From Lentisphaera profundi (GTDB lineage Bacteria; Verrucomicrobiota; Lentisphaeria; Lentisphaerales; Lentisphaeraceae), in contig NZ_CP117811.1 of NCBI RefSeq assembly GCF_028728065.1, forward strand, positions 682,001 through 746,000: 64,000 nt of DNA, given 5' to 3'. Positions 5,542 through 22,779 of this stretch are shown here, piece after piece; within the stretch, counting starts at the first letter, position 1, and every line of letters begins with the position of its first letter. The position numbers and the translations under genes were made by a program. The notes beneath the pieces are model-generated. The model was not told the DNA's origin, searched no databases, and was given only the letters and a program-made list of their open reading frames with translations.

Positions 5542-6843
5542 TTAAACTAAAATTTGTGGAAGATTTTTATTATCGTAATTAAACTTATCAATTTTCACTC
5601 CAGCCTGCTGAAGTAAGGTGAGCCAGTATTTACCAAGAGAAGTATTCTCTTCTTCAAGAATGATATGCTCACCCTTCCTGATGTCTTTCGCACCACCGCC
5701 AGAAAGAATCGCCGGAACATCCTGAGTCCCGTGACCCGTCTTAAGGTTTGAACCATAGTTCACAATCGTACTATCAAATAAGCTTTGACCTTGAGTATCT
5801 TTGGTACGCTTCAAACGATCAATAAAGCCCGCATAAAGCTCCATAATCTTCGCATCTCTCTTTTCAGAGGCAACTCGGCTATCGCCTGAACTGCCGTAGT
5901 GACTCAAGCTGTGAGGAGACAGAGATATACCTAAGCTTTTAATCACAGAGGCCACGGGCTGGCGGTAAGTAATCACGCGAGTCATATCTGATTGTAGCGC
6001 AATGATCATCATATCGTAAATCAGATTAACTTCTTTTGCTCCATCCATGCCTTCAGTCGGAGGGCCAAAAGGCGCTTGCTGCTTGGGGACATTGGCCCAT
6101 GCCTTTTCACGACTTAAAGTCTGCTCAATTTCTCTTACTGAGGTGAAGTACTGATCTAACTTTTCCGAATCTTCACTGGCAAGCTTTCGCTGCACACTTG
6201 TGGCATCTTTATGAACAAGATCTAGGACACTCTGACGTTTGTTTAAACGCTTAATAACAGTGTCACTGGAGTCACCCTCTTGAGCAAATAAAGTCTTATA
6301 TAATTCCAAAGGCGAGTTTAAAGCTGGAATGGAACGGCCACGTTCATCAGAAGATAAAGAGTAGCCACTGCCATGACCGGCACCTTGACCAGGCATATGG
6401 TCATTCCCTGAAAGTACCAATGACCGAAAGCGACAATCTTTACCAATCGTGTTGGCGGCAATCTGATCGCATGAGATGCCCGCTTCATGTTCACGGTAGC
6501 TACCGCAACTTAAGTGAAACTGGCTCCCCCCGTGAGGGTTGCTCACACCTAAATTAGTTAAATTCCTCACCATTGTAATATCATTTTTATGACGTTCCAA
6601 GGCTTTCATTGAATGCGTCAGTCCCATATCTACAAACTTACCTGCTTGTTCCGGAAAAAAACTTTCATTATTTGTGCCATGATGGGCATGAGTAAAGCCA
6701 TAACCCCCGCCTAGAAAAATCATTCTCTTGGGGATAGAGCTAGGTGTGTTAGCCGCCATAGAGTCTAGATAAGGTAAGGCCAATAAACAGCTACTCGTTT
6801 TTAGAAATGAACGACGATTCATTAAATTTGTTATAAGTGACAT
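5542..6843 (-). CDS. DUF1552 protein with Tat signal (module 1)
   Basis: DUF1552 family protein of 433 aa. The N-terminus carries a twin-arginine signal (RRSFLK, residues 10-15) and a hydrophobic stretch, so it should be exported folded. Family features include MIFLGGGYGFTH, HGGSQFHLSCG and, toward the C-terminus, NYGSNLKTGHGTQDVPAILSG. In PVC bacteria DUF1552 genes sit next to PSD-cytochrome genes; here it starts 13 bases after the FHA-PSD gene and is surely co-transcribed. Biochemical function is unknown; the related DUF1501 family belongs to the alkaline phosphatase superfamily, so a hydrolase-like fold is possible. It is paralogous to 10099-11364. Confidence 0.88.
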   Translation of the reverse strand: MSLITNLMNRRSFLKTSSCLLALPYLDSMAANTPSSIPKRMIFLGGGYGFTHAHHGTNNESFFPEQAGKFVDMGLTHSMKALERHKNDITMVRNLTNLGVSNPHGGSQFHLSCGSYREHEAGISCDQIAANTIGKDCRFRSLVLSGNDHMPGQGAGHGSGYSLSSDERGRSIPALNSPLELYKTLFAQEGDSSDTVIKRLNKRQSVLDLVHKDATSVQRKLASEDSEKLDQYFTSVREIEQTLSREKAWANVPKQQAPFGPPTEGMDGAKEVNLIYDMMIIALQSDMTRVITYRQPVASVIKSLGISLSPHSLSHYGSSGDSRVASEKRDAKIMELYAGFIDRLKRTKDTQGQSLFDSTIVNYGSNLKTGHGTQDVPAILSGGGAKDIRKGEHIILEEENTSLGKYWLTLLQQAGVKIDKFNYDNKNLPQILV

Positions 6844-6856
6844 AAGCTTTCTCTAT

Positions 6857-9802
6857 TTAATTCTTGATAAAAATTGGACTTTCGATGACGGCGTAAATCA
6901 TATCTTTAATACGGAAATTTTGCCCTCTAGTGTTAGTGATGATTTCATCTATATGGGGCATGTCAGTAAATTCGATATCTCTACCTAAACTATATACCAA
7001 AAGTGATTCGATCATGTTCCTGGCGAGTTTTTCTTCATAGCTAAGTAAATGACTTTGAAATTCACCATAGGTCTGAAAAGCATTGCCATCGGCAAATGCG
7101 CCATCAATTTTGATCGGAATATGATCTCTAGAAACCCTTTCCGTATCGCGCCAACGTCCAATGACATCAAAGTTTTCCATCGCCAGTCCCATATTATCCA
7201 TGTCTCTGTGACAAGATGCACACTGCACTTGTGATTGATGCAGCTCCACTAGTTTGCGAGTCGTCAAAACTTCATCACTTTCTGCCCCTAATTCAGGAAC
7301 ATTTGGAGGCGGAGGAGGAACTGTTTTATTCATGAAGCGATTAAGTAGCATCATACCGCGAATTGTAGGTGAAGAGCGTTCGCCATTTGAACCCGATAAT
7401 AAAAAGACTCCCTGAGACAGAAAGCCACCTCTAGGTGAATTTTCTGGAAGCTTAACTGATTCAAATTTATTACTCGTCATATTGGGAATACCATAAAGAG
7501 TGGCCAATTGCGCGTTGATCGTCACAAAATCTGATTTAACAAGATTTGAAATCGGCAGATTATTGCGAAGCATTTCTTGGAAATAATGAATCACTTCCTG
7601 CTTCATTGAATAGCGCAAGCCCATATTAAAAGTAGGATATTGCTTCGAATTAACCGTTATATTATCAAAGCGTGTAAAGTCCGCCCACTGACTTGCAAAG
7701 CCTTCACTAAAATCTCGATAATTAGTTTTTTCTAGAAGTCGATCAATCTCCTCTCTTTGAGAAGTCTCGGTGACTGAGGCTTGATTGAATTTTTTATATA
7801 ATGCTTTATCGGGGGGAGAGCTCGTGAGGAAGTAAGACATCCTTATCGCTTTGTCTTTATTAGAGATTTGCTTCGGACTATCTTCATTCAAGAATAAAAA
7901 GCTTGGTGAGGACAAAACAACCGCGAGAGTATCGATCAAGGCTTCTTCAAAACTAGAGCCCAATTTTCGCTGCTTCTTATGAAATTCATTGAGCCCAATT
8001 ATGAAATCATCTGAGGGAGTTTTATGCCTAAAAGCTTCATAGGTGAATTTTTCTAAAAGCTCATTTACGCTGGCATCATTCCAGACCATGACGGAAGGTT
8101 TTTCAGGAGTCGGCTCCTCGGGACAAAGCAACTTGTCAAAGAAGCTTCTTTCTTCTGGGTAGTAAGGACCTTCACATTTAAAGGAATCAATCCAGATCAA
8201 ACCTTCTTTCTTCGCATCAACACCCTCATAGCGCTCAATAAAGCTAAGGTAATGAGATAGCCAGGCACCTGAACGATCTTCCGCAACATATCCACCAATT
8301 TTCTCTTTTAGAGTTTTTGGTGTGATTTCTATCGTACTTTCTGTGGGATTATCTTCTGTACCATTAACGCGAATCACGCCAGCTAAGTCTTCACTTCTAC
8401 CTAATTGCAATCTTACATAACGCCTAAAAGGTGCTACCTGACCATGAACTCCGGACTTCACACTGATCTTGTACTTGGCGCGAGGATCAATCCCAAAGCT
8501 ATAACCTAAATGCCGGATCGGTTGAGCCAGGTAGACTCCCTCTTTATACTTAGGTAATTTAATGTAGGCCTCATTATTCCTGGACAGCCTGTAAACTTTA
8601 CCTGATCCTTTTGGTTTGTGTGCATGTTCATCTAAAAACCTTTGTATATGACCATTGGTACGTTCTTCTGGTTGAGTTTCCACTATCTTAAAAGTTTCTT
8701 TTTTTCCAGCCAATTTAAAACTTGTTTGTAGAACCTCTCTAGCCAGTTCATAATAATGATCTATGTGCTTGGAGTTAAAGTCTTGACGAATTCCAACCGT
8801 ATCAAAGTTTTCAACTCCTTCATCTGCTGGGATTTTCTTTGGTTCAGGCTCTAAGCCAAAGATATCTCTTATGGTTGCTCCATATTCTCGACGCGTTAAG
8901 CGACGCATGGTCACTTTTCCACCTTTAGAAGCAAGCTGTTTACGTGCGACAAATAAGCCCTCGGTCAATTCCTTGATCACGAGCTCAAGCTCTTCTTTTT
9001 TTGGCTGAGTTTCTTCTTCTGGTGGCATATCACCTGTATTTAAGACATCAAGTATATCTTGGTACTCAAAAGCTTCGTAGTTATCAGAAACGACATAATC
9101 AAGATGATCAAAACGCGTACTCCCCTTTTGTTTCTTCGTGCCATGACATGAAATACAATGCTCTTCTATGAAGGGCTTAAGGACCTGGGTATCAAAGTTA
9201 ACTTCATGATTAAACTGCTCAGGTTTTTCTTTATTGACAAGGGGCGCAGTTTCGCTCTCCTCGCCTTTATCTCCAGCTAGCTCCTGCTTAGATTCTACGC
9301 TTGTGCCACGAGCGGAATTTGCTCTTTCGACATTTCCTTTCGAGCCATAGATACAACCGACAAGTAGCAGTGCAAGTAACACAGCAATACAGAGTTTCTT
9401 TGAAGACTCAGTCTTCTTTTTAGCATTCAATTTTCTATCCCTTAATTTTTTATTTCTAATATTGTTTATATTCAGCGTAAGTACTTTGCCTTCTTTAAGT
9501 AAAGAAGATTTTGACGTACTCAATTCAACTTTAAATTCAATATTTACAAGATTGATGGTGCTACCATCTAAAACTTCGCCCTGACGATCAACTTTCGCTC
9601 CATTAATATACACTCCATTGGTGCTATCATTATCAATAATGAACCATTGCCCATCATATTTTCTCAAAGAAGCATGTTGAGCTGAGATGCCTGGGGCTGA
9701 AATTACTAATGAATTACATTCATTACTGCCAATGGTAATAATTGCTTCACTAAACTCTAATTTTTCCCCTGCCAGAGGACCATTTGAAAAATTGAGTATC
9801 AC
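6857..9802 (-). CDS. FHA-TM-PSD cytochrome fusion protein (module 1)
   Basis: A 981-aa membrane protein with an unusual layout. Residues 1-95 are an FHA domain (IGSNECNSLVI, GISAQHASL, DSTNGVYING), the phosphothreonine-reading fold. A basic stretch and one transmembrane helix follow (about 137-153), so FHA should face the cytoplasm and the rest the outside. The outer part has a first heme-binding motif CISCH (216-220), then the planctomycete PSD series: DUF1587 (MRRLTRREYGATIRDIFG), DUF1595, DUF1592 (RMSYFLTSSPPDKALY), DUF1588 (RGGFLSQ...SPTIRGMMLLNRF...PPPPPNVPEL), a second heme motif CASCH (861-865), and DUF1585. The usual family lacks FHA and has a signal peptide. It is first in an operon with DUF1552, with a TGTTAAG/CTTCTAT element upstream. 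A redox or surface-binding role controlled by a Ser/Thr kinase is inference. Confidence 0.88.
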   Translation of the reverse strand: MILNFSNGPLAGEKLEFSEAIITIGSNECNSLVISAPGISAQHASLRKYDGQWFIIDNDSTNGVYINGAKVDRQGEVLDGSTINLVNIEFKVELSTSKSSLLKEGKVLTLNINNIRNKKLRDRKLNAKKKTESSKKLCIAVLLALLLVGCIYGSKGNVERANSARGTSVESKQELAGDKGEESETAPLVNKEKPEQFNHEVNFDTQVLKPFIEEHCISCHGTKKQKGSTRFDHLDYVVSDNYEAFEYQDILDVLNTGDMPPEEETQPKKEELELVIKELTEGLFVARKQLASKGGKVTMRRLTRREYGATIRDIFGLEPEPKKIPADEGVENFDTVGIRQDFNSKHIDHYYELAREVLQTSFKLAGKKETFKIVETQPEERTNGHIQRFLDEHAHKPKGSGKVYRLSRNNEAYIKLPKYKEGVYLAQPIRHLGYSFGIDPRAKYKISVKSGVHGQVAPFRRYVRLQLGRSEDLAGVIRVNGTEDNPTESTIEITPKTLKEKIGGYVAEDRSGAWLSHYLSFIERYEGVDAKKEGLIWIDSFKCEGPYYPEERSFFDKLLCPEEPTPEKPSVMVWNDASVNELLEKFTYEAFRHKTPSDDFIIGLNEFHKKQRKLGSSFEEALIDTLAVVLSSPSFLFLNEDSPKQISNKDKAIRMSYFLTSSPPDKALYKKFNQASVTETSQREEIDRLLEKTNYRDFSEGFASQWADFTRFDNITVNSKQYPTFNMGLRYSMKQEVIHYFQEMLRNNLPISNLVKSDFVTINAQLATLYGIPNMTSNKFESVKLPENSPRGGFLSQGVFLLSGSNGERSSPTIRGMMLLNRFMNKTVPPPPPNVPELGAESDEVLTTRKLVELHQSQVQCASCHRDMDNMGLAMENFDVIGRWRDTERVSRDHIPIKIDGAFADGNAFQTYGEFQSHLLSYEEKLARNMIESLLVYSLGRDIEFTDMPHIDEIITNTRGQNFRIKDMIYAVIESPIFIKN

Positions 9803-9887
9803 ATTGAACCTTCCGCTATGCTTAAGACCCTATGCCTAGTAAATCTATAATGAGTTATTTGCATATTTTATATCCTAATATTTTCTA

Positions 9888-9918
9888 ATAGAAGTCAGAA
9901 AAAGGCTCAATCTTAACA
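9888..9918 (-). promoter_or_regulatory. TGTTAAG-N17-CTTCTAT promoter-like element
   Basis: Minus-strand TGTTAAG and CTTCTAT boxes 17 bases apart, about 86 bases upstream of the FHA-PSD gene of module 1. The flanking sequence out to about 9,990 is also similar to that upstream of the genes at 14,351 and 16,825, so these three sites probably descend from one another. Confidence 0.6.
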
Positions 9919-10000
9919 GCTATTTAAAATAAAGTTCAATACTTAGCTATGTACAAGTTTTAATCACACAAACAAATTCATTGTTACTGAGAGATAGCTC

Positions 10001-10099
10001 GAAAGGCTTAGGAATGTAGCCATGGAGGTAAGTCCGTGGTATTTGAATAGCAGAATCGTGCGTGCCGAAGCTACGCTGCAGAGCTTTAGCTTCATACCC
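10001..10099. repeat. Repeat A copy between the two FHA-PSD modules
   Basis: One copy of repeat A (GGAATGTAGCCATGGAGGTAAG... to TTTAGCTTCATACC), about 100 bases. It begins after the promoter region of module 1 and ends directly at the stop codon of the module 2 DUF1552 gene. It has the same orientation as the copies at 3.5-4.5 kb and 17.0 kb. Confidence 0.85.
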
Positions 10100-11364
10100 T
10101 AAGCTAAAAATGAAGTCTCTCTGCCTGTACTTTGACCAAAGTTTTTAACATCTACCCCAAGTTCATTGAGAATAGTCAGTAAAGCGTTTGCTAGAGGAAC
10201 TTTCTTCTCATGAGGGCGCACATTGTGTCCTTTCTTTAAGCCTGCAATCGCTCCACCTGTGACGAAAAATGGCATATCTCGGTTGCCGTGACCACTCCTT
10301 AGATTCGATCCACAGATAAAGGCCGTATTGTCAAAAAGGTTTTGACCATTGACATCCTTTGTCTCTTTAAGCTTTTTAATACCATAAGCAAAGAGTTCCA
10401 TATTCGTTTTATCTCTTTGTTCCGCCCAAGTCCTCATCTGTTGACTTGAATTGTAGTGAGATACACCGTGGATAGTAGTATTAATACCTAAACCAGTCAG
10501 CAGAGCCGTGTTCGGTATGGCCAAGGAAGCGACGTTTGTCTGACCCGACTGAAAAGCCAGGGCAATCAAATCATAAGACAGTTTGACATCTTTTATACCA
10601 TCTCTTTTAGCGGCGTATTTAGTCTTACCACCAAGTTTTGTATCAGGAAATGGGTATGGTGCCTTTGGTTTTGGTACAGCGACCCAGTCAAGTTCTCTTT
10701 TCAGTTCGTATTCCATTTGACGAATTGACTGAAAATACTCATCAAGTTTAACTTTATCAGATTTTGTAAGCTGGCTGGAAAAATTATTATAATCTATCTT
10801 TTTTGAATCTAAAACACTTCTCTTTTGCTTTATACGCTGGATTAACTGTGCTTTACTTTCATTGCTACTGAACAGAGTTTTATACAAATCCAAATTTCTT
10901 CGGAAACCAGGTATATAACCACCCCTAAAGTCATAAGATAAGCCCTTGCTATGTCCATCGCTAAAGTCAGATGTATTTAGAACAATATTTTTATAACGAG
11001 CCTCTTTACTTAAGTAGGTTCCTGCAAGAATATCTGCAGAGACGGGACCCATGGCTCTCAAAAACTGGGTGCTGCCATCGTGGGCTGAATGATAGCCAAA
11101 ATTCCTTAGCTTTTCGACCATAGTTATTTCATCTATAAAGGGGCTGAGAGGCTTCATGCTTTCTTCAAGGCCAATTTTGGCAAAGCTCCCCACTGTCTTA
11201 GGGTAAAAATGTGTATCTGAAAAACCATAGCCTAAACCAACGCACAGGAATTTTTTGGGAGTATTTTTTGATTTAGCTGCCTCCGCTTCAAGTGTAGGAA
11301 GCGCTAAACAGGCCGCAGAAGAAATTAAAAAAGATCTTCTAGAAATATTTTTAATAATGCTCAT
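10099..11364 (-). CDS. DUF1552 protein with Tat signal (module 2)
   Basis: DUF1552 family protein of 421 aa, paralogous to the product of 5542-6843. The Tat motif RRSFL lies at residues 9-13 with a hydrophobic region to about 27. Family features include FLCVGLGYGFSD, LSYDLIALAFQSGQTNVASL and ICGSNLRSGHGNRDMPFFVTGG. It starts 14 bases after the module 2 FHA-PSD gene, the same spacing pattern as in module 1, so the two-gene unit was duplicated as a block. The C-terminus ends within a base or two of repeat A, so the last residues may have been altered by repeat insertion. Function is unknown; export and partnership with the PSD protein are inferred. Confidence 0.87.
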   Translation of the reverse strand: MSIIKNISRRSFLISSAACLALPTLEAEAAKSKNTPKKFLCVGLGYGFSDTHFYPKTVGSFAKIGLEESMKPLSPFIDEITMVEKLRNFGYHSAHDGSTQFLRAMGPVSADILAGTYLSKEARYKNIVLNTSDFSDGHSKGLSYDFRGGYIPGFRRNLDLYKTLFSSNESKAQLIQRIKQKRSVLDSKKIDYNNFSSQLTKSDKVKLDEYFQSIRQMEYELKRELDWVAVPKPKAPYPFPDTKLGGKTKYAAKRDGIKDVKLSYDLIALAFQSGQTNVASLAIPNTALLTGLGINTTIHGVSHYNSSQQMRTWAEQRDKTNMELFAYGIKKLKETKDVNGQNLFDNTAFICGSNLRSGHGNRDMPFFVTGGAIAGLKKGHNVRPHEKKVPLANALLTILNELGVDVKNFGQSTGRETSFLA

Positions 11365-11378
11365 GTCTTATTCCTTTT

Positions 11379-14351
11379 TTATTTACTTCTAAATGTTTTT
11401 GAATTTACAACCTCAAGAACCATATCCAGAACGCGGTAATCACGCTTTTTTAATCGCTCAAGACATTTTTCTATTTCGGGCTCATCGATGAATTCAAGCT
11501 TGCGACCTATACCATAAGAGAGCATCTCCTCGAACATCGAACGAGCCAACTTTTCTTTCTGTGTTATCAACTGAGCTTTAAAACCCTCAAGGTCATTAAA
11601 GGTATGACTGGTATCCAAATAACCACTGGGATCAATTTTAACTAAATGTGTATCTTTTCGGTCAGAATCTGGCTGCCTTTTTAGTCTGACCTCTTCTCTG
11701 AAATTCCCCAAATGATCAAAATTTTCGAGTCCATAACCAAGGGGATCAATTTTCTCGTGACATGAATTACACTGCGGGACACTTTTATGAAGGTCTACAA
11801 GTTGCCTGATTGTTTGAGTGCCATCATCTTGAACAGCTAACTGGGGAACATTTGGTGGCGGTGGCGGCGGCGTATCATTTAAGAATTTACTGCGAATAAT
11901 CGTTCCACGAATTGTTGGTGATACTTTTCCCCCATTACTGCCCATGGCCAGAAAAGCCACTTGAGTTAGCACCCCGCCTCTTTTGCTGTTTGCTGGTAAT
12001 TTTACAGCTCGAAAGCCATTAAACTCTCCTTTAATCCCATAGTGATTCGCCAATTGTTGATTGACCACGGCAAAATCCGAATCAATCAAACTCTCAATTG
12101 GTAAATTATTCTCCAACATATACTTAAAATAGTGCAATGGCTCTTTTCTCACGAATTCTCCGAAAGGAGGTTTTATTTCTGCAGCGCTAAGTCTATCTAA
12201 GCCAAACCATTGCCCGAAAAAACTACCCAAGGCTAATTCTCTTTCCTCAGAACTAAGCATTTCCTTTATCTGCTTCGCAACTCCGTCGGCTGACTGCAAT
12301 TCACCTCTTCGAGCCGCCTCAAGTAATTTTTGATCAGGTGGTGCCCCCCACATAAAGAAAGCTAAACGATTAGCATAATCTGGCGCTGCTATCTCTTGCC
12401 CGAGCCCCTTTGAATACTCTTTCATGTATAGAAAAGACGCAGAAGAGAGTACCGTTGCAAGCTGGCTCTTCAGAGCCTCTCCTGGGGCAGCACCTATTTC
12501 CCGCTCACTTCTATAATTCTTAATCAATGAATCGATAAAAGCGTTCGCAGGCTCTACGTTTCGAAAGGCTCGATCACAGAATTTGACTAAGGCCTCTCTT
12601 AGCTGCTTATCGCTAACAGACTTGTTACTAATAATAGGTTCAAAGCATTCTTCAAAATGGGACTTCTCGGTTTCGATTGGCTCCAAGAGAAAATAATCAA
12701 AATAACCATTTTCGGGTGCATATACAACAAAACCACGCTTATGACTTGTTTGGTATTTATCATATACTCTATGTTTGTCTAATAACAGTGAACCAGTAAT
12801 GATCACACTTGCTTCATGTCTCTTTTTGGTGGAATCAAACTTTAACTTTAGGGCTTCAGATCCCTCAAAGCTAAGAGAGCCAATTTTGTCACTACTGCCA
12901 AAAGTCACGACAGTAAATTTATACTTTTGACCCGGAGCTACAGTAAAGTTACAGACAATTCTGTTATTTGCCCCAAATTCAAGATTTTCATCAAGTAAAC
13001 CCCTTATCGCTCTAGGAACGAGAATACGGCCTACTTTACCAGGGTACTTTTTTTGCATTGCCTTCACTAAATCTTTTTGTGTGTAGGAACGGTATTTTTC
13101 TATATCTATTTCACCTTTAGTAAATTGATCGAACTGCCTCTTCATGTGCTTCCGCTGAAACACCTCAGGATCAAAACGTTGCTTAGCTGTATACTTCCTT
13201 TTCTCGTTTATAGAAACATATGCAGAGCTAAGAATATCAATTGCCTTGGTATAATAAATCTTTTGGTGATTGATGGTGAAAAACTGTTCGCTGCCGTCAG
13301 TATCCAAACCCTCTGGCGAGTCAGAGGGCAAATTTTGTGTACTTAAGGGTGCGCCAAACAAATCAGCTATACTCCCCTTGTATTCGCGTCTATTTAAGTG
13401 ACGCATCGTAATAACTCCGCCAGTAGAAGCAAGCTTTTCTTGGGCTTTTTGAAGCCTGTTCGTAAGCTCCCCAATGACTCCAGAAAGTTCTTTTTTTGAG
13501 GGTTGTTTTTCATCTTCAGGTGGCATATCCCCACCATTTATTGCATCCAAAATCTCTCGCCAATGGCTAATGGCTTTATGGCTTGAAATAGCAAAATCAC
13601 TATCATCTATTCTGAGTTTGCCTTTCTGTTTCTTGTCATTGTGACAGCTAAAACAATACTTATCTATATAATCATAGAGCACGTCTCCAATTAAAGGCTT
13701 CGGCTTAGCAGCAACAAGGGTTTCAGTTTTGGCTTCTGGAGTAAATTTTTCGCTAAGCGGCACTACCTGAGCTTCTGGGCTTTCTATTTTGTCAGCAAGT
13801 TCAGTTGGCGCTGTTTTAGTGTTGACATCCTTTGGAGCTTGGCTCAATTCCTTCTGCCCGACAACACAAGCGGCCAATACCACGCCAGTAAAGATAGCTA
13901 GGCTTAGCGCCTTAGAAAAGCCTTTCTTCTTTTGGTGTTTGAGCTTCTGTCGAGCTTTATTTTTCGATGAAAATTTTTGAGCTGTCTCTACTGCTTTAAG
14001 CGGCTGTTTTTTTTCGGCAGCAAAAGTAACTAAAGGTTTTTCTTTAAGCGAGGCAATTACCTCTTCAGTAATCAGTACAACAAACTCTACTTCTGCCAGT
14101 TTAATTGTATCGTAGTCGCTAAGATTTGCTTTATGCTCTACTTTTTGTCCATTGATGAAAATGCCATTAGTACTTTTGGCATCAATCACCATCCACTGAC
14201 CATCTAGCTTTTCGATATGAGCGTGTTTAGATGAAATCCCCGGCTCAGGAATGACGAGTAAATTACTCTTATCACTGCCAATGCTTATAATCGACTGATC
14301 TGTATCTAGCTTTCTGCCTTTTAGCGAGCCGTTTAAAAATACAAATTTCAT
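11379..14351 (-). CDS. FHA-TM-PSD cytochrome fusion protein (module 2)
   Basis: A 990-aa paralogue of the module 1 fusion. The FHA domain spans residues 1-95 (IGSDKSNLLVI, GISSKHAHI, KSTNGIFING). A basic linker with KHQKKK precedes one transmembrane helix at about 147-164. The extracytoplasmic part has heme motif CFSCH (233-237), DUF1587 (MRHLNRREYKGSIADLFG), DUF1595, DUF1592 (RLAFFMWGAPPDQKLL), DUF1588 (RGGVLTQVAFLAMGSNGGKVSPTIRG...PPPPPPNVPQL), a second motif CNSCH (861-865) and DUF1585. Both FHA domains have GS where classical FHA domains have GR, while the S/H and N-G residues are kept. First gene of an operon with DUF1552. The pair duplication argues for a selected function of the whole module; what the heme domains do is unknown. 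Confidence 0.88.
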   Translation of the reverse strand: MKFVFLNGSLKGRKLDTDQSIISIGSDKSNLLVIPEPGISSKHAHIEKLDGQWMVIDAKSTNGIFINGQKVEHKANLSDYDTIKLAEVEFVVLITEEVIASLKEKPLVTFAAEKKQPLKAVETAQKFSSKNKARQKLKHQKKKGFSKALSLAIFTGVVLAACVVGQKELSQAPKDVNTKTAPTELADKIESPEAQVVPLSEKFTPEAKTETLVAAKPKPLIGDVLYDYIDKYCFSCHNDKKQKGKLRIDDSDFAISSHKAISHWREILDAINGGDMPPEDEKQPSKKELSGVIGELTNRLQKAQEKLASTGGVITMRHLNRREYKGSIADLFGAPLSTQNLPSDSPEGLDTDGSEQFFTINHQKIYYTKAIDILSSAYVSINEKRKYTAKQRFDPEVFQRKHMKRQFDQFTKGEIDIEKYRSYTQKDLVKAMQKKYPGKVGRILVPRAIRGLLDENLEFGANNRIVCNFTVAPGQKYKFTVVTFGSSDKIGSLSFEGSEALKLKFDSTKKRHEASVIITGSLLLDKHRVYDKYQTSHKRGFVVYAPENGYFDYFLLEPIETEKSHFEECFEPIISNKSVSDKQLREALVKFCDRAFRNVEPANAFIDSLIKNYRSEREIGAAPGEALKSQLATVLSSASFLYMKEYSKGLGQEIAAPDYANRLAFFMWGAPPDQKLLEAARRGELQSADGVAKQIKEMLSSEERELALGSFFGQWFGLDRLSAAEIKPPFGEFVRKEPLHYFKYMLENNLPIESLIDSDFAVVNQQLANHYGIKGEFNGFRAVKLPANSKRGGVLTQVAFLAMGSNGGKVSPTIRGTIIRSKFLNDTPPPPPPNVPQLAVQDDGTQTIRQLVDLHKSVPQCNSCHEKIDPLGYGLENFDHLGNFREEVRLKRQPDSDRKDTHLVKIDPSGYLDTSHTFNDLEGFKAQLITQKEKLARSMFEEMLSYGIGRKLEFIDEPEIEKCLERLKKRDYRVLDMVLEVVNSKTFRSK

Positions 14352-14498
14352 CTTTGAAGCTCAAATAGGCTAGCTTCATGAGCAAACTTAGAATTGGTCA
14401 ATGTCATATTTTGATCCTTAAATTTTTCTAATAGAAGGACGAATAGAAGCGGACCTTAACAGCAATTTTAAATAAAATTCAATACTTAGCTATATCCT
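14338..14498. repeat. Promoter-region duplication, copy 1
   Basis: About 160 bases, from within codon 6 of the module 2 FHA-PSD gene through its 5' leader and TGTTAAG/CTTCTAT element to ...CAATACTTAGCTAT, are repeated almost exactly at 16,809-16,970 in front of the SGNH hydrolase. The first six codons (MKFVFL) are part of the shared block. Confidence 0.88.
14431..14461 (-). promoter_or_regulatory. TGTTAAG-N17-CTTCTAT promoter-like element
   Basis: Minus-strand TGTTAAG and CTTCTAT with a 17-base spacer, 80 bases upstream of the module 2 FHA-PSD gene. A second CTTCTAT lies within the spacer but only 5 bases from the TGTTAAG box. The site lies within the duplicated block shared with 16,809-16,970. 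Confidence 0.6.
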
Positions 14499-14544
14499 GA
14501 ATTCGTGAGCTATATTATGTTGATTTTTACAATTTCAGCTTGTG

Positions 14545-14841
14545 TTAATTCCATTTCTCCGCCTTTAGCCTTCCAGCCGTGAGTCCGCCATATACCGCAC
14601 CCAAGGCTGGGCCCTCCAAAAAATTGATCTGCCAATTCATGCCCCTTACGGAGCATGCTACACTATGTCGGTGCTTTGCACCTAAGTTGGATTCGCCTAT
14701 TAGGGTCGTAGACCCAGCATAAATCAGCCTGTGTTGCATTAGACGAGGGTCGTAGACCCGGCATAGAATAGCGTGTGGCGTGAGCCACACGAGCGAGATA
14801 ATAATAAAATGATTGAGGGCTCACTTGTGAGTCCGGCATAT
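14545..14841. repeat. Repeat B array, left of the IS200-like unit
   Basis: Noncoding palindromic repeats. They include a hairpin at 14,638 (CATGCCCCTTACGGAGCATG), the perfect palindromes GGGTCGTAGACCC (twice), and a left half of the GTCCGGCATATACCGGAC hairpin ending at 14,841 where the transposase unit begins. Related arrays lie at 15.36-15.81, 21.49-21.99 and 22.80-23.0 kb. Confidence 0.85.
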
Positions 14842-15355
14842 CAATACTTCATAATAGGAAGCCCTAAATAAAACTTGCTTTGTCTCGTAGGCTACTATAA
14901 ATTAGCTATAATAAGTAAATAATGGAGCAAGTTATGTCTAAATCATTTAATCAAATTTATGTGCACATAATTTTCCATGTGGGCAAAAGTGCAATTATAA
15001 AAAGTGACACGGAGAGTGAATTATATGCCTACATGAGAGGACTAAGTAAAATTTTATCTAGTCAGATTTTGGAAATGAACGGCACCGATAATCATGTTCA
15101 TATTTTAGTTTCATTATCACCTACTATTTCTGTGGGGGAGTTTGTTAATAAAATAAAAAGTAATTCATCAAGATGGATGAAGAAGGTAGATAAAGATTTT
15201 AGTTGGCAAAGAGGCTATGGGGCATTTTCGGTTAGTTCGAGCGTTTGTGTAAAGGTTAGACGCTACATTAAGAAACAGAAAGAACATCATAAAGTTATTT
15301 CATACCAAGATGAATTACAGAGTTTTTTAGAGCATTATAATTTAGAGTGAGGTAT
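14842..15355 (+). mobile_element. IS200/RAYT-like unit inserted in a repeat B hairpin
   Basis: Uninterrupted repeat B copies read GTCCGGCATAT-AC-CGGACCC (for example at 21,580-21,600). Here the left part GTCCGGCATAT ends at 14,841, the transposase gene follows, and CGGACCCAAGTTTGGGCCC resumes at 15,356. So a unit of about 514 bases sits in the loop of this 6-bp-stem hairpin. The boundaries come from comparing filled and empty copies; one or two bases of ambiguity remain because TAT occurs at both edges. The unit holds only the Y1 transposase gene. Confidence 0.75.
14934..15350 (+). CDS. IS200-like HUH (Y1) transposase, REP-associated type
   Basis: Single-strand DNA transposase of the IS200/IS605 TnpA group, to which REP-associated tyrosine transposases belong. 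The HUH motif is HVH in TDNHVHILV (about residues 54-56), and the nucleophile is the Tyr in RRYIKKQKEHH (about residue 111), followed by the typical EHH. GYGAFSVSSS is also a family signature. The start at 14,934 is chosen because GGAG lies six bases upstream; an ATG at 14,922 would add four residues. The 138-aa length fits IS200. The gene lies inside and between repeat B copies, so it could act on those hairpins. It could equally be an ordinary IS200 element that used the hairpin as a target. Confidence 0.88.
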   Translation: MSKSFNQIYVHIIFHVGKSAIIKSDTESELYAYMRGLSKILSSQILEMNGTDNHVHILVSLSPTISVGEFVNKIKSNSSRWMKKVDKDFSWQRGYGAFSVSSSVCVKVRRYIKKQKEHHKVISYQDELQSFLEHYNLE

Positions 15356-15815
15356 CGGACCCAAGTTTGGGCCCTAAATCAATTCTAAACCAGTCTCATG
15401 CCCCTTACGGAGCATGCTACATTATGTCGGACTCACAAGCGAGCCCTCACCAGAAATTTGATCTGCCAATTCATGCCCCTGACGGAGCGTGCTACATAAT
15501 GTCGGACTCACAAGTGAGCCCTTCCCAATTGATATATCCTCATTCATGCCCCTGACGGAGCATGCTACATAATATCGGTGCTTTGCACCTAGGGCTTTGC
15601 CCGGGGTAGAGTAGGTGTATTGCATTCACATAGAGCGAAATGATTAGGGTCGTAGCCCCAGCATAAATCAGCCTGTGTTGCATTAACATAGAACGGAACA
15701 ACGAGGGTCGTAGACCCGGCATAGAATAGCGTGTGGCGTGAGCCATAGGTATAGTTTGATGAAATGACGCGAGGGCTCACTTGTGAGTCCGGCATATATC
15801 GGTCTTGGCTGTGAG
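15356..15815. repeat. Repeat B array, right of the IS200-like unit
   Basis: Three more copies of the CATGCCCC-TNACGG-AGCATG hairpin start near 15,397, 15,472 and 15,545. Copies of GGGTCGTAGMCCC and of GTGAGTCCGGCATATATCGG are also present. The hairpins alternate with GTCGGACTCACAAG segments that carry the reverse complement of GTGAGTCCG, so the array could fold into long compound structures. Short open frames in this stretch follow the repeats and are not genes. Confidence 0.85.
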
Positions 15816-16002: not shown

Positions 16003-16150
16003 GCGCCAGCTGTCGATGCGCTTCAATCCGGTTTCGGTATGCTGTCCATTTGCATTGATGCGCTCAAGCCTGGCAACATCATCCAATGCACCGCCCACAA
16101 ACATCGTGTATCCGCTTGAAATAGAATCACCGATGAGTAATACCTTGGGG
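16003..16150 (-). pseudogene. N-terminal fragment of a second SGNH hydrolase
   Basis: Minus-strand reading gives KVLLIGDSISSGYT, then VGGALDDVARLERINANGQH and ETGLKRIDSW, the block I and following segment of SGNH/GDSL hydrolases. It resembles the same part of the intact gene just upstream but is a different sequence, so it is a second family member. It is joined to the intact gene's tail at a run of four C residues (16,147-16,150), where the frame shifts, and to a pilin fragment at 16,002. It looks like the scar of an internal deletion. Confidence 0.7.
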
Positions 16151-16825
16151 AAGGACTGTGCGAGGCGGAGCGGCAGCCTCTCCCGAAACCGCGATCATGA
16201 TATGTTTAGCGACTTGTTTTGCGTGTTCTTTGCGGCCCTCGGTGTTGAAGTGAACGTCATTATCTGCAAGAGCAAACTCATTGCGCCTGGCTTTTGTGAA
16301 GGAATGCAGATCATTCACCTGAATGCCATGTTTCTTCATTACGCGCTCAGCAGCATCCAGATATGTCTTTTCTATTTCAGGTGTCAGGGTGATTCCGCCG
16401 GTGCGTTCCGCTTTCGGGCAAATCGTCGTCGTTGTGGCCCAGATAAGCTTGGCTCCTGTTTTCTTCAAGCGGAGAACCAAGGTTTCCAGCCTTTCTTCAT
16501 AAGCCTTTGGACTCCTATCGACCTCCATATACCGCCATCCATACATGTCCCATAAGCCCCAGTTGAAATGAATGACATCCCATTCAGTAGTTTCTAACCA
16601 CGTATCAATATGGGCGATACCTCTCATTGTAGGCCCTGCATTTCCTTTGTGATGCTTCACAATCGCTTTTCCATTTAACTGCTTGATAACATAGGGCGTA
16701 TACTGACAGGAAATGGAGTCCCCAATGAGCAATACCTTGGGAATACCCGTATCCAGCAGAGTTTGTCCCTCTGGCTGAGCTACAGTCGTTACAGCGGCGA
16801 CAAGCATTAAAAATACAAATTTCAT
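16127..16825 (-). CDS. SGNH/GDSL-type hydrolase, secreted
   Basis: SGNH-fold esterase of 232 aa with signal peptide (about 1-18). Block I is KVLLIGDSIS, the central block HFNWGLWDM supplies the Asn/Gly region, and the C-terminal DVHFN supplies the Asp and His. The fold suggests removal of acyl groups from glycans, which fits the neighbouring enzymes. The last 15 or so residues run into a foreign SGNH fragment and are probably not native. The first six codons and the promoter region are a duplicate of those of the FHA-PSD gene at 14,351, so the gene seems to have acquired its promoter and first codons by recombination. Substrate unknown. Confidence 0.78.
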   Translation of the reverse strand: MKFVFLMLVAAVTTVAQPEGQTLLDTGIPKVLLIGDSISCQYTPYVIKQLNGKAIVKHHKGNAGPTMRGIAHIDTWLETTEWDVIHFNWGLWDMYGWRYMEVDRSPKAYEERLETLVLRLKKTGAKLIWATTTTICPKAERTGGITLTPEIEKTYLDAAERVMKKHGIQVNDLHSFTKARRNEFALADNDVHFNTEGRKEHAKQVAKHIMIAVSGEAAAPPRTVLPQGITHR

Positions 16826-16970
16826 CTTTGAAGCTCAAACAGGCTGGCTTCATGAGCAAATTCAGAATTGGTCAATGTCATATTTTGATCCTTAAATTTT
16901 TCTAATAGAAGGACGAATAGAAGCAGACCTTAACAGTAATTTCAAATAAAATTCAATACTTAGCTATGTA
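16809..16970. repeat. Promoter-region duplication, copy 2
   Basis: Nearly identical to 14,338-14,498, including codons 1-6, leader and promoter element. Beyond 16,967 the similarity switches to the sequence upstream of the module 1 FHA-PSD gene (GTACAAGTTTTA-TCACACAAACAAAT, 9,950 region) and then to repeat A. The segment is therefore a mosaic of the two FHA-PSD upstream regions. Confidence 0.85.
16905..16935 (-). promoter_or_regulatory. TGTTAAG-N17-CTTCTAT promoter-like element
   Basis: Same boxes and 17-base spacer as at 14,431-14,461, 80 bases upstream of the SGNH hydrolase. It arrived as part of the duplicated block and so is not independent evidence for the motif. Confidence 0.55.
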
Positions 16971-17004
16971 CAAGTTTTACTCACACAAACAAATGCACTG
17001 TTAC

Positions 17005-17637
17005 TGAGAGATGAGCTCGAAAGGCTTAGGAATGTAGCCATGGACGTAAGTCCGTGGTATTTGAATAGCAGAATCGTGCGTGCCGAAGTTACGCTGCAGA
17101 ACTTTAGCTTCATACCTTCGGCATGAGTATCATTTTTTAACAATAGCCACTGGATAAATCCGGTGGCTACCATGCTTCATACCTTCGGCATGTACTTGAT
17201 TTCCCATTCATTAATGGGGAGCTCGAGGAGCAGCAGGCCTCAAATGGCTGGGAACTTAAGGGGTTTCAGGTGTTTTTTTTGCGAAGCTAGCCCGCGGAGG
17301 CTCTCTTAATGGGTGGAAACTTAAGGGTATTTATACGTGCTGCCACCTTTTTTAGTAGGGCCCCGAGGGCTCCTCGGCTACCGGAGGTATTTATACTGGG
17401 GCTCTGCCCCAAACCTCGCTTAAGGTACTGCCGTACGGGCCAATCATCTTTATCCGCCTGTGTGGCAACACCCCTTAAGGATCCCTACACTCGGAGCTTC
17501 GCGCCCGCGCTTAATTTTAAGCTTAGATTTGCTTCAATTCCCTACCATTAGGAGCACCTATCTCTTAGGGATCGCATCTTTGGCGTCAGTGACACAGTCG
17601 CGCATCTTGACCCTATCTCTCACACAAAGACGGTAAT
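17005..17637. repeat. Repeat A copy and mixed repeat debris
   Basis: A repeat A copy occupies about 17,014-17,127. It is followed by a hairpin GCCACTGGAT-AA-ATCCGGTGGC (17,138-17,162) and TCATACCTTCGGCATG. From about 17,280 there are segments resembling 3,450-3,530 (CCGCGGAGGCTCT...GGAACTTAAG). A segment near 17,432-17,463 matches the one near 768-800. No credible gene is visible in this stretch. Confidence 0.75.
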
Positions 17638-18378
17638 TCACCACAGCGTCGGCTGCGTGAGTCCGTCGAATCGAAAATTGTCAATCCCCCAGTTAGTGGA
17701 TCTATTCCAGGGATGACCATTGGTGTTTTGATTAAAACCAATCATTTGAGGATTGCTGAATATATACGTATAATTCATTGCTTTGACATGACCGTCGACA
17801 AATAGCGCATTAGCTTTGTTCCCAACATGTCGGGGAGCTATAACATTGGTATTGTAATAGATGTCAGCACGGCCGTGGGCATCCATGGTAAAAATGACTT
17901 CGGAGGGGCTTACTGCACCCAAGCCACTGAGCGACGACACTTCCCTAAGGTAGCGATTCATGGGAAAACTGGCCTCCCAAATCATGCTAGTGATCCAAAA
18001 ATCTCTGTTTTGCGAGGGACAGAACCATAGGTCCATGTTTCGGACATAATTATAATCATAAATACCTTTATAGCCTTTGGTTCCTCCAGGTCCTGTTAAT
18101 AGCGTCGGCAGAGGCCCGTTTGGGCCGCCAGAACGATAATAATTATTGCCGTTATATCCCATACCACTTGGCAAGAATCGATTGTCATTATCATCAAGAT
18201 ACATGAAGTTAGCCATACCGATTTGTTTTTGCTGACTGACGCATACCGCTTTTCTTGCTTCGCCTCTTGATTTAGAAAGCATGGGAGCCAAAAATGAAGC
18301 AAGGATACCAATAATCGCAATGACTACCAGTAATTCTATGAGGCTAAAGTGATTTGTTTTTGTACAATTATTTTTCAT
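17638..18378 (-). CDS. DUF1559 prepilin-like protein
   Basis: Type IV pilin/type II pseudopilin-like protein of 246 aa. It has the prepilin N-terminal motif FSLIELLVVIAIIGILA just after a short basic leader, and a C-terminal DGH motif with a histidine spaced before it (RHVGNKANALFVDGH), close to the H-X9-DG signature of this PVC family. Such proteins are very numerous in Lentisphaera and relatives and probably form surface or secretion pseudopili. The start has AAGGA-like sequence upstream and a TGTTAAG/CTTCTAT element 32 bases away. A nearly identical C-terminal copy is present as debris at 15,833-16,002. The gene is divergent from the ECF sigma factor. Confidence 0.88.
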   Translation of the reverse strand: MKNNCTKTNHFSLIELLVVIAIIGILASFLAPMLSKSRGEARKAVCVSQQKQIGMANFMYLDDNDNRFLPSGMGYNGNNYYRSGGPNGPLPTLLTGPGGTKGYKGIYDYNYVRNMDLWFCPSQNRDFWITSMIWEASFPMNRYLREVSSLSGLGAVSPSEVIFTMDAHGRADIYYNTNVIAPRHVGNKANALFVDGHVKAMNYTYIFSNPQMIGFNQNTNGHPWNRSTNWGIDNFRFDGLTQPTLW

Positions 18379-18409
18379 TTAAGGTCCTTAGGTTCTATTA
18401 TATTTTATA

Positions 18410-18440
18410 ATAGAAGTCAGTTTAAATCAAGATCTTAACA
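18410..18440 (-). promoter_or_regulatory. TGTTAAG-N17-CTTCTAT promoter-like element
   Basis: Minus-strand TGTTAAG, 17 bases, CTTCTAT, followed by a very AT-rich stretch. It lies 32 bases upstream of the pilin-like gene start. Outside the boxes it is not similar to the sites at 14.4 and 16.9 kb, so it counts as an independent occurrence. Confidence 0.65.
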
Positions 18441-18586
18441 CTAAATCAGAAAAAAATTAAATTTTCTGTTTAAAGTTTACTTATTTTACTTAGTATAGTA
18501 TTGATTAGAGTGCTGATTTAATAGATCATTAAAGTACGAGAAGCAATTGGGAAATTGCGATGGCACACAGAAAACATAGGAATCAA

Positions 18587-19174
18587 ATGGATAATTGGAA
18601 TACAAGAGAGTCTTTACTTCTACGAGCATCGGATCCAGATAATCACGAAGCCTTTGAAGAGTTCGTTTATTATTACAAAAATTTTATCAGCATGGTTTTT
18701 TCTAAGCTGGGTGTGCAACAAAGTCAAATTGATGACCTCCGGCAGGATCTTTTAATTAAACTTTGGAAAGACATCGGCAAGTTTGATTCGACTCGGGAGA
18801 ATTCGAATTTTCGCGGTTGGCTGAGTGTGGTTATGAGGCATGAAGTTTATCGTTTTTTTCGAAAAAATAAGAGTGATAAGAAGGAACTCAGTGATACAGA
18901 TTTGGACTTATCGCAAGAAAGTGAAATTGATCAAATGATTGAAAAAGAATGGAAGGCTTATGTTACTTCTTTGGCGGTAGAAAAAATCAAAGCTCATTTT
19001 GATGGCAATGCCCTGAAAGTCTTTTATCTCACTTTAGAGGGCAAGAATGCTGCCGCTATTGCTGTTGAGTTAGAGATGTCCGAAAACTCTGTCTATGTAC
19101 TTCGTTCAAGGGTAAAAGCTCGTTTTCAAGGTGAGATCCGCCAATTAAGGTCACTACTAGAGAATCATCAGTGA
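18587..19174 (+). CDS. ECF RNA polymerase sigma factor (kinase-linked type)
   Basis: Sigma-70 family ECF factor. Region 2 spans roughly residues 15-85 (EFVYYYKNFISMVF, DDLRQDLLIKLWK, FRGWLSVVMRHEVYRFFRK). Region 4 lies near the C-terminus (KNAAAIAVELEMSENSVYVLRSRVKARF). I choose ATG 18,587 (MDNWNTRESLL) because AGGA sits five bases upstream and relatives start this way; an upstream ATG at 18,560 is in frame. Its stop overlaps the GTG start of a Ser/Thr kinase by four bases, so the two are translationally coupled. ECF factors paired with Ser/Thr kinases are known to be switched on by phosphorylation rather than by anti-sigma factors. It is a candidate to read the TGTTAAG/CTTCTAT promoters, but its own upstream region lacks that motif. 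Confidence 0.9.
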   Translation: MDNWNTRESLLLRASDPDNHEAFEEFVYYYKNFISMVFSKLGVQQSQIDDLRQDLLIKLWKDIGKFDSTRENSNFRGWLSVVMRHEVYRFFRKNKSDKKELSDTDLDLSQESEIDQMIEKEWKAYVTSLAVEKIKAHFDGNALKVFYLTLEGKNAAAIAVELEMSENSVYVLRSRVKARFQGEIRQLRSLLENHQ

Positions 19175-21216
19175 CTCAGGAAACCGATAAATTTATTGCC
19201 ATTCCCAAAAACCTTGATTATCGAGCGACGGATTTTTATGATTTAGAGGAAGATGAGCGAGATACGCAATGTACTCAGCTCTATGAAGAATTTGCTGATG
19301 TTAATAAGCGCTATACGGAAGTGGCTGAAATTGCTTCTGGGGGGATGAAAATCATTTCTCGAGCCTATGATCAAAAGACCGGGCGTTATGTGGCTATGGC
19401 GTCGGTTAAAGAAAATTTAGGAAAAGAACCCTACGGTCCTTTTCTTGCAGAAGCACGGCTGACGGCGGCACTGCATCATCCCAATATTATCAAAGTTCAT
19501 GATATAGATTACAGAGATGATGGCAGTCCGTATTTCACCATGGACCTCAAGTTAGGAGATTCATTAAACGAAATTCTGAAGAAATTGCAGCAAGGTGTTG
19601 AGTCCTACACAAATTTATATACGACGGAATCACTACTCAATATTTTTATTAAAATTTGTGATGCGGTCTCCTATAGCCATGCTCAAAGTATTTTGCATTT
19701 GGATATAAAGCCGGAAAATGTTCAGGTAGGTGAACATGGTGAAGTACTGCTTTGTGACTGGGGCTTGGCACGTCAGCTTGGCGACAAAACTACAGACAAT
19801 GATGATCTTTTGAGCATGGAGTTTCTCAATGGTCAGACACTGGTCGGCAAAGTTCGAGGAACACCTGGCTTTATGGCTCCCGAACTTCTCAAAGACAAGA
19901 AAAAAAGAGCTTTGCAGTCAGATGTTTACGCATTGGGCGCAGTGCTTTACACAATCCTGACTTATCAGAATCCGATTGATGGTGATGTTCAGACGGTACT
20001 TTTGAAAACTAAAAATGGCGATATTATAGCTCCGATTGAGCGTTGCCCAGATAAAGCGATTCCCAAGAGTTTGAATGCGGTGGTGATGAAGGCTATGGCT
20101 TATGATAAACACGACCGTTACGCCACGGTGAATGAGTTTACTGAGGATGTCAGGAAATATTTATTTGGTTATGCGACAAGCGCAGAAAACGCGGGTTTTT
20201 TGAAAGGCTTGATGCTATTTTATAAACGCAATAAAAATGCTAGTCGAATTGCCGCTACTTCACTTTTTATTCTGATGATGTTTGTTTATGCCTTTATTAT
20301 CAAGCTTGAAAAGGCCAGGCTGAATGAATATCAACTGCGATTGACTGCTGAGCAGCAGAGAAAAATAGCCGAGGATAATTTTCAAAAATACAAAGAGGAA
20401 AAAGAGCTAGCCGATTTAAGTCTAGCGGCTGACCCGAGCGTGGTTCTTGCTAAGATAAAAGAGTATTACCATAGTCATTTTCTGGATGCGCCGAAAGCAA
20501 CACTTGATCATGTGATGAAATCCCTCGAGCGCATTAAAGAATCCAATGACAGCGCTATTTTACTTTATGAATTCAAGGGAGATGTACACTTTGTCAGGGA
20601 AGAGTTTGATTTAGCGCTCAAAGAACTTCAAAAAGGACGAGGAGCCGAAGAGAACCCCAATTTATTTAAAGCATTAAAATCAGTTGAAGATTATCAGAGT
20701 AGTCAGCAAGCAGCACCGATAGCAGTGATCAACACTGTTTTAGATAAGTTGAGTGGTGATTTTGTTCAACAGCAGGTCCGGATGATGATTTATGATGGGG
20801 CAGTAAGAGCCAAAGATGAAGATCATCTTCAATTAGTAAAGCGAGTCTTCACGGAAGTTAATCGAGTTGATGTACTCGATGAATTTAGCTATGATTTTGA
20901 AACTAAAACTTTAATAATAGATGGTGATTTTGTGCGCTGTAGTACTTATATTGCGCAGTTTGATCAAGAAGTTTCACTCTTATCGACTTTGGGACCAGAG
21001 CACCTCATTATAAAAGGGACGGAGCGCTTAAATACACCCAGCCTCGGTGGCTTGAATTTAAAAACGCTTGATTTGAGTGGAGTAAAATTAGATAATCTGT
21101 ATAAGTTTATCAAAAGAGGGGTGACTGAAAAACTCATTATCAATAAAGCGACAACGGATCCCGAGCTTTTAAAGCTTTTGAAAAAAGAATACAAGATCGT
21201 TTTTAAACCTGAGTAG
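19171..21216 (+). CDS. Transmembrane Ser/Thr protein kinase, ECF-coupled
   Basis: PknB-type kinase of 681 aa starting at GTG. The kinase domain spans about residues 48-330 with catalytic HLDIKPEN (Asp178), DWG in place of DFG (196-198) and MAPE (235-238). The VAIK lysine position reads VAMA (Ala77), although Lys80 is close by, and the glycine loop is short (IASGGMKII). A transmembrane helix (358-378) is followed by a coiled coil, a TPR-like helical region, and a C-terminal part with leucine-rich periodicity (LKTLDLSGVKLDNLYKF). Catalytic activity is plausible but should not be assumed. It probably senses an extracytoplasmic signal and phosphorylates the sigma factor encoded just before it. 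Confidence 0.9.
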   Translation: MTQETDKFIAIPKNLDYRATDFYDLEEDERDTQCTQLYEEFADVNKRYTEVAEIASGGMKIISRAYDQKTGRYVAMASVKENLGKEPYGPFLAEARLTAALHHPNIIKVHDIDYRDDGSPYFTMDLKLGDSLNEILKKLQQGVESYTNLYTTESLLNIFIKICDAVSYSHAQSILHLDIKPENVQVGEHGEVLLCDWGLARQLGDKTTDNDDLLSMEFLNGQTLVGKVRGTPGFMAPELLKDKKKRALQSDVYALGAVLYTILTYQNPIDGDVQTVLLKTKNGDIIAPIERCPDKAIPKSLNAVVMKAMAYDKHDRYATVNEFTEDVRKYLFGYATSAENAGFLKGLMLFYKRNKNASRIAATSLFILMMFVYAFIIKLEKARLNEYQLRLTAEQQRKIAEDNFQKYKEEKELADLSLAADPSVVLAKIKEYYHSHFLDAPKATLDHVMKSLERIKESNDSAILLYEFKGDVHFVREEFDLALKELQKGRGAEENPNLFKALKSVEDYQSSQQAAPIAVINTVLDKLSGDFVQQQVRMMIYDGAVRAKDEDHLQLVKRVFTEVNRVDVLDEFSYDFETKTLIIDGDFVRCSTYIAQFDQEVSLLSTLGPEHLIIKGTERLNTPSLGGLNLKTLDLSGVKLDNLYKFIKRGVTEKLIINKATTDPELLKLLKKEYKIVFKPE

Positions 21217-22708: not shown

Positions 22709-22748
22709 ATCTGACCTCAATATCATTAATTAAGTGTATACCTTTTAT

Positions 22749-22779
22749 ATAGAAGTCACAAGCTTGATCAATCTTAACA
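22749..22779 (-). promoter_or_regulatory. TGTTAAG-N17-CTTCTAT promoter-like element
   Basis: Minus-strand TGTTAAG at 22,773-22,779 and CTTCTAT at 22,749-22,755 with 17 bases between, 41 bases upstream of the pilin-like start. An independent occurrence, since the flanks differ from the other sites. Confidence 0.65.

Follow-up and report, generated by a model that had tools for sequence, protein, structure and literature searches.

Two genes of Lentisphaera profundi raise the question of why an FHA domain, predicted to be cytoplasmic, should be joined through a membrane helix to a PSD-type heme protein. Both lie in a window of 64,000 nucleotides (the whole stretch of DNA that was analysed), taken from a genome of 5.46 Mb in two contigs, referred to below as G000. 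The PSCyt/PSD domain sets and their conserved neighbour genes have already been described, without known function, and the legend of the architecture figure in that work lists carbohydrate-binding and protein-interaction domains, with no FHA (PMC5615132). A literature search returned no report of FHA joined to PSD cytochromes, and nothing on what PSD cytochromes and their DUF1552 partners do. The sequence-only reading of the locus had proposed that a phosphothreonine-reading FHA domain links Ser/Thr kinases to a machine at the cell surface.

Architecture and membrane topology

The two genes, their key segments and their partners are as follows:
6857..9802, minus strand: gene 1, FHA-TM-PSD cytochrome, 981 aa, GTG start (continuous ORF, Pfam; nested among lipoprotein-signal orthologues)
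9518..9802, minus strand: FHA domain of gene 1, residues 1-95, Ser for the GR Arg (Pfam and alignment)
9341..9397, minus strand: TM helix of gene 1, residues 136-154, lipobox-like LVGC inside (hydropathy)
5542..6843, minus strand: DUF1552 (HXXSHH) partner of gene 1, Tat-type N-terminus (Pfam, twin Arg)
11379..14351, minus strand: gene 2, FHA-TM-PSD cytochrome, 990 aa, ATG start (continuous ORF, Pfam, AlphaFold2 model)
14067..14351, minus strand: FHA domain of gene 2, residues 1-95, Ser for the GR Arg (Pfam, Foldseek FHA matches)
13848..13919, minus strand: TM helix of gene 2, residues 145-168, lipobox-like LAAC inside (hydropathy, AlphaFold2)
10099..11364, minus strand: DUF1552 partner of gene 2 (Pfam; AlphaFold2 model resembling the sulfatase/alkaline phosphatase superfamily)

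ORF analysis, Pfam and hydropathy agree on the architecture first read from the letters. The FHA domain (residues 22-85 in both proteins; 55 and 58 bits in genes 1 and 2) is followed by a single N-terminal TM helix, placed by hydropathy at 136-154 in gene 1 and 148-166 in gene 2, and then by PSCyt1, DUF1587, DUF1595, DUF1592, DUF1588 and DUF1585 in order, above or near the Pfam cut-off. Two CxxCH motifs are present, at 216/861 in gene 1 and 233/861 in gene 2. Both proteins share the six ordered domains, the pair of CxxCH motifs and a DUF1552 gene downstream with the PSCyt3-class planctomycete cytochromes (PSCyt1-PSD3-PSD5-PSD4-PSCyt3-PSD2), from which they differ in having an FHA domain, predicted to be cytoplasmic, and an internal TM helix in place of the N-terminal signal peptide. 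AlphaFold2 models gene 2 (pLDDT 80.8) as an FHA sandwich (1-95) that passes through a basic, disordered linker into a helix (145-168), followed by a second disordered stretch and a compact body (223-990). Its FHA fold matches GarA-type FHA domains in Foldseek, and FHA domains were the only matches in a PDB sequence search with gene 2.

The five complete fusions all have a charge of +5 to +8 on the 15 residues preceding the helix and of -1 to +2 on the 15 residues following it. Neither CxxCH motif varies among 40 relatives, and c-type heme attachment is extracytoplasmic. Because of this charge pattern and these motifs, the supported reading of both sequences is that the FHA domain lies inside and the PSD body outside, as had been proposed, rather than both on the heme side of the membrane. 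A separate FHA gene joined to the cytochrome by misreading is excluded, since FHA is in frame in L077, L079 and the separate fusion L081, all from other genomes.

The DUF1552 genes begin 13 and 14 nt after the two FHA-PSD genes. Their predicted Tat export, also part of the sequence-only reading, is borne out by Pfam and by a twin Arg (R9 R10) that is invariant in 35 DUF1552 proteins and is followed by a hydrophobic stretch. A PDB sequence search gave no match for DUF1552. The AlphaFold2 model of the gene 2 partner matched sulfatase/alkaline-phosphatase folds with a top E of 8e-5 and a TM-score of about 0.4.

Distribution and exchange of N-terminal heads

FHA is found on two of the 24 PSCyt3 proteins of G000. 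Further fusions are L077 (G004), L079 (G002), L081 (G005) and the contig-end fragment L152 (G005), whose FHA and presumed PSD body, L076, stand on two contig ends and are presumably joined. All genomes with a fusion belong to one GTDB family, Lentisphaeraceae. Among the matches listed for 388 Verrucomicrobiota genomes, FHA occurred in frames longer than 800 aa only in G000, G002 and G004; a separate contig scan, with narrow peptide patterns, shows close relatives only. A widespread FHA-PSD architecture was also considered and rejected, as none was seen outside Lentisphaeraceae among the best-ranked Verrucomicrobiota matches listed. The expectation of a clade-restricted architecture with conserved DUF1552 adjacency thus holds within these matches, the adjacency being conserved in the gene 2 clade; the distant fusion L081 has neither an adjacent DUF1552 gene nor the promoter-like motif described below.

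The two genes had been regarded as a duplicated pair, which is misleading. Their PSD bodies share 37% identity and fall into separate clades, which rules out tandem duplication of one FHA-PSD gene. The gene 1 body is 86% identical to that of L075 and about 73% identical to those of L078 and L076, with 86% and 76-77% for the respective DUF1552 partners. These three orthologues start with a lipoprotein signal and have no FHA; because the closest relatives of gene 1 carry this signal instead of FHA, the pair is not a simple duplication. On a tree of 48 PSD bodies the FHA label requires 3 changes, forced by supported branches. The FHA label of the row L076:15990 is a presumed one, and without this row the FHA clade retains gene 2, L077 and L079. 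The FHA tree did not resolve the PSD-linked domains as one clade or several.

Other PSDs carry different heads at the same TM position, either zinc-ribbon-like CxxC pairs (14 rows, called from cysteine spacing, with no Pfam match above the cut-off) or helical segments (3 rows). The zinc-ribbon-like heads account for 7-9 changes on the same tree, at least seven of them on supported branches. Because different heads occupy one position in these genomes, the PSD N-terminus is, judging by the sequences, an exchangeable cassette that may be FHA, zinc-ribbon-like, helical or a plain signal peptide. Upstream of zinc-ribbon-like PSD genes in L063, L067, L084, L085, L086 and L091, a different and rough promoter-like motif, TGTAAC-N16-GTCTA, was noted by eye. 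A PSCyt2/PSD1-type protein (L081:816-3485) that adjoins a DUF1501-like gene has N-terminal CxxC pairs and a TM helix, and suggests that cytoplasmic heads occur in this sister PSD class also.

The lipoprotein signals of the FHA-less orthologues bear on the question of whether the FHA head is retained at all. A lipobox-like Cys (LVGC, LAAC, LLGC) lies in the TM helix of gene 1, gene 2, L077 and L152, at the place of the lipobox in L075, L076 and L078. The helix might consequently be cut as a lipoprotein-like signal, giving a PSD lipoprotein and an FHA-TM by-product. However, the position is Tyr or Lys in L079 and L081, which remain open fusions, and the FHA sequence is better conserved than the linker, needlessly so for a discarded piece. 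Signal peptidase II, moreover, normally cuts short N-terminal signals. Removal of the head is for these reasons considered highly improbable.

Promoter-like element and the ECF sigma factor/kinase pair

The regulatory features of the locus are as follows:
14428..14461, minus strand: promoter-like TGTTAAG-N18-TTCTATTAG before gene 2 (pattern search)
9885..9918, minus strand: promoter-like TGTTAAG-N18-TTCTATTAG before gene 1 (pattern search)
16902..16935, minus strand: promoter-like element before the GDSL-hydrolase gene (16127-16825), near copy of the gene 2 5' end
18407..18440, minus strand: promoter-like element before the pseudopilin-like gene 17638-18378 (pattern search)
22749..22779, minus strand: promoter-like element before the pseudopilin/DUF1559-like gene 21998-22726 (pattern search)
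14348..14407, minus strand: 19-codon leader ORF, stop overlapping the gene 2 start (ATGA)
9799..9864, minus strand: 21-codon leader ORF, stop overlapping the gene 1 start (GTGA)
L154:13430-13474 and L152:3380-3424: further leader ORFs before FHA-PSD genes
18560..19174, plus strand: ECF-type sigma factor, proposed regulator of the element (sequence, co-occurrence of orthologue and motif)
19171..21216, plus strand: Ser/Thr kinase with one TM helix (360-378), overlapping the sigma gene by 4 nt

Within the window the element has 4 matches to the first pattern (0.18 expected) and 6 to a refined one (0.10 expected). A strict form, TGTTAAGR-N17-TTCTAT-N3-AAA, has 5, 3, 8 and 5 sites in G000, G002, G004 and G005 and none in G001 and G003, while a reversed control gave none in all six genomes. 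All five strict sites of G000 fall between 9,882 and 22,779 of the window, no more than about 9 kb from the ECF gene. In most cases the start codon of the target gene or leader ORF follows the element at about 18-45 nt. In G000 the element precedes both PSD operons, the GDSL gene and the two pseudopilin-like genes; in relatives its targets include sulfatases and further PSDs. Sulfatases and a GH95 gene also belong to the locus, and the latter (1052-3430) has a similar element whose spacing is one base longer.

Leader ORFs of 14-21 codons precede the gene 2, gene 1, L077 and L152 fusions. They have a ribosome-site-like AGGAT and a 4-nt overlap with the PSD start (ATGA, GTGA or TTGA), which suggests translational coupling. 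About 150 nt of the gene 2 5' end, comprising the element, leader ORF and first codons, is nearly copied before the GDSL-hydrolase gene (window 16780-17020 and 14306-14546), a duplication of the promoter/leader cassette. Copying of such 5'-end cassettes is a possible route of head exchange. Between these two genes, the window contains an IS200-like (Y1_Tnp), REP/RAYT-like transposase ORF (14922-15350), with four-copy imperfect repeats and inverted repeats around it (14608-15800).

Orthologues of the ECF gene (70-81% identity) occur in exactly the four genomes with the strict motif, with none in G001 or G003, and in all four the ECF gene is followed, with a 4-nt overlap, by a 681-aa kinase. From this co-occurrence (six genomes, four positive) we infer that the ECF sigma factor reads the TGTTAAGR-N17-TTCTAT element. 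ECF sigma factors regulated by Ser/Thr kinases, with adjacent genes, have been described (PMC8103513). The pair resembles those of ECF43, ECF59, ECF60 and EcfP/PknT in the adjacent kinase gene and may differ in its DAED-like region, which reads QIDD by eye, whereas uncharged residues replace DAED in sigma factors of this type. In the whole G000 genome there are 86 sigma-70 region 2 and 105 protein kinase matches, with many ECF/kinase pairs, some of them near PSD genes.

The presence of three Ser/Thr kinases in the window (19171-21216, 24707-26683 and 32566-34479) was reported correctly in the sequence-only reading. As to kinase-to-surface signalling, a kinase is indeed nearby, and the ECF/kinase locus and the common promoter-like element support a link of the FHA-PSD genes that would be transcriptional; the part of the claim that ran through phosphothreonine reading by FHA was not supported in the form proposed.

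The link could also run in the opposite direction. The PSD/DUF1552 machine might sense substrate or redox state, with its cytoplasmic head relaying the signal to the ECF/kinase pair in a feedback loop. The exchange of membrane-crossing heads on a kept PSD body would fit such sensing, as would the position of the FHA-PSD genes under an element tied to the same ECF/kinase locus. However, a general loop of this kind is ruled out by two gene 1 orthologues that share the promoter element but begin with just a lipoprotein signal and lack any head in the cytoplasm, and the kinase 19171-21216 has its own TM helix and C-terminal extracytoplasmic region. Sensing through the FHA head is rated as quite unlikely.

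The FHA pocket and phosphothreonine reading

The GR-motif Arg of FHA domains contacts the phosphate of phosphothreonine. In 6/6 PSD-linked FHA domains Ser or Cys stands in its place, and a small residue (Ser, Ala or Gly) follows the SxxH serine. Most other FHA domains of G000 keep GR, as do three solved FHA domains aligned to gene 2. The PSD-linked domains thus resemble those of GarA, FhaA and Rv1747 in fold and most core residues and differ in the missing Arg and in being joined by a TM helix to a heme protein. Residues S40, H43, S60-G63 (STNG) and N67-G68 (NG) are invariant among them. Because the phosphate-contacting Arg is lost, canonical high-affinity phosphothreonine reading is doubtful; because other residues lining the phosphopeptide pocket (Ser40, Thr61 and Asn62) are retained, weak or altered binding may persist.

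Conservation gives a mixed picture. In the closest set (gene 2, L077, L152), FHA identity is 59-77% versus 47-58% for the PSD body, whereas in L079 the FHA domain is the less conserved part (37-46% versus 49-60%), so constraint on FHA is uneven. From L077:5472 and L152:3421 onwards, the synonymous difference is 0.15-0.34 in the first 60 FHA codons and rises to 0.8 by codon 120, while other genes in these two genomes differ by 0.58-0.81 (small windows, rough values). Either the transfer of a 5' cassette or selection acting on the 5' end may explain the low initial difference.

The original proposal was that the FHA domain binds phosphothreonine made by a neighbouring kinase and thereby controls or anchors the PSD/DUF1552 machine. 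It draws on the ECF/kinase pair 4 kb away, conserved in the four motif-bearing genomes, on the retained core Ser, Thr, Asn and His, and on the occurrence of an ECF-FHA fusion in G000 (L116:3352-4542, a 396-aa ECF sigma factor that ends in an FHA domain). It also finds a parallel in a sister system of the same family, in which DUF1501, PSCyt2/PSD1 and FHA-TM-PEGA genes stand in a row:
L187:2411-8001, with a Ser/Thr kinase gene ahead
L186:3679-8660
L110:3683-7914
The full kinase-DUF1501-PSCyt2/PSD1-FHA-TM-PEGA order occurs in G002, while G004 and G000 have its last three members. Here, too, a membrane FHA protein is tied to a PSD/Tat-protein pair; it differs from FHA-PSD in being a separate gene, in its intact GR Arg and in having PEGA in place of PSD. 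This grouping keeps the phosphothreonine-reader idea alive for the sister system. For genes 1 and 2, against the proposal stand the altered pocket in all six domains and the lack of an FHA head on most G000 PSD genes, though many ECF/kinase pairs lie near PSD genes, and the proposal is considered unlikely. Elsewhere in the window, a 721-aa protein (53918-56083) has a long SSE repeat and at least two FHA-like domains, one with intact GR.

Proposed role of the locus

The preferred explanation, for which the probabilities for and against are evenly balanced, is that genes 1 and 2 are membrane-tethered PSD cytochromes of a sulfated-polysaccharide locus under the ECF/kinase pair, with FHA as a docking module. 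Both would be PSCyt3-class cytochromes anchored in the inner membrane: with FHA in the cytoplasm, a flexible basic linker and a single TM helix would keep the two-heme PSD body on the periplasmic side, next to an exported DUF1552 partner with a sulfatase/alkaline-phosphatase-like fold. The PSD/DUF1552 pairs would belong to a locus transcribed by the dedicated ECF sigma factor/Ser-Thr kinase pair. The N-terminal head would be swappable among FHA, zinc-ribbon-like, helical and plain signal peptide forms, and the FHA head would, through a mostly phosphate-independent contact, dock the heme complex to a partner in the cytoplasm or the membrane.

The explanation builds on the observed architecture, topology signals, head exchange, motif/ECF co-occurrence and loss of the GR Arg. 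Docking of a partner and a sulfated polysaccharide as substrate are its inferred parts, for which the hints are the DUF1552 fold, the sulfatases and GH95 of the locus, and the better FHA conservation in the closest set. In a broader and less likely form, periplasmic PSD/DUF1552 complexes of different polysaccharide loci in Lentisphaeraceae may receive swappable cytoplasmic heads (FHA, zinc-ribbon-like or helical) that wire each to its own ECF/kinase circuit, a repurposed, Arg-less FHA being one such plug.

PSD cytochromes and DUF1552 partners are abundant in PVC bacteria, and this locus offers a handle on their function through a candidate regulator, a promoter-like element of defined sequence with few targets, and a cytoplasmic head usable as bait for partners. 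Head exchange on a conserved heme body would represent a new way to wire periplasmic machinery to the cytoplasm.
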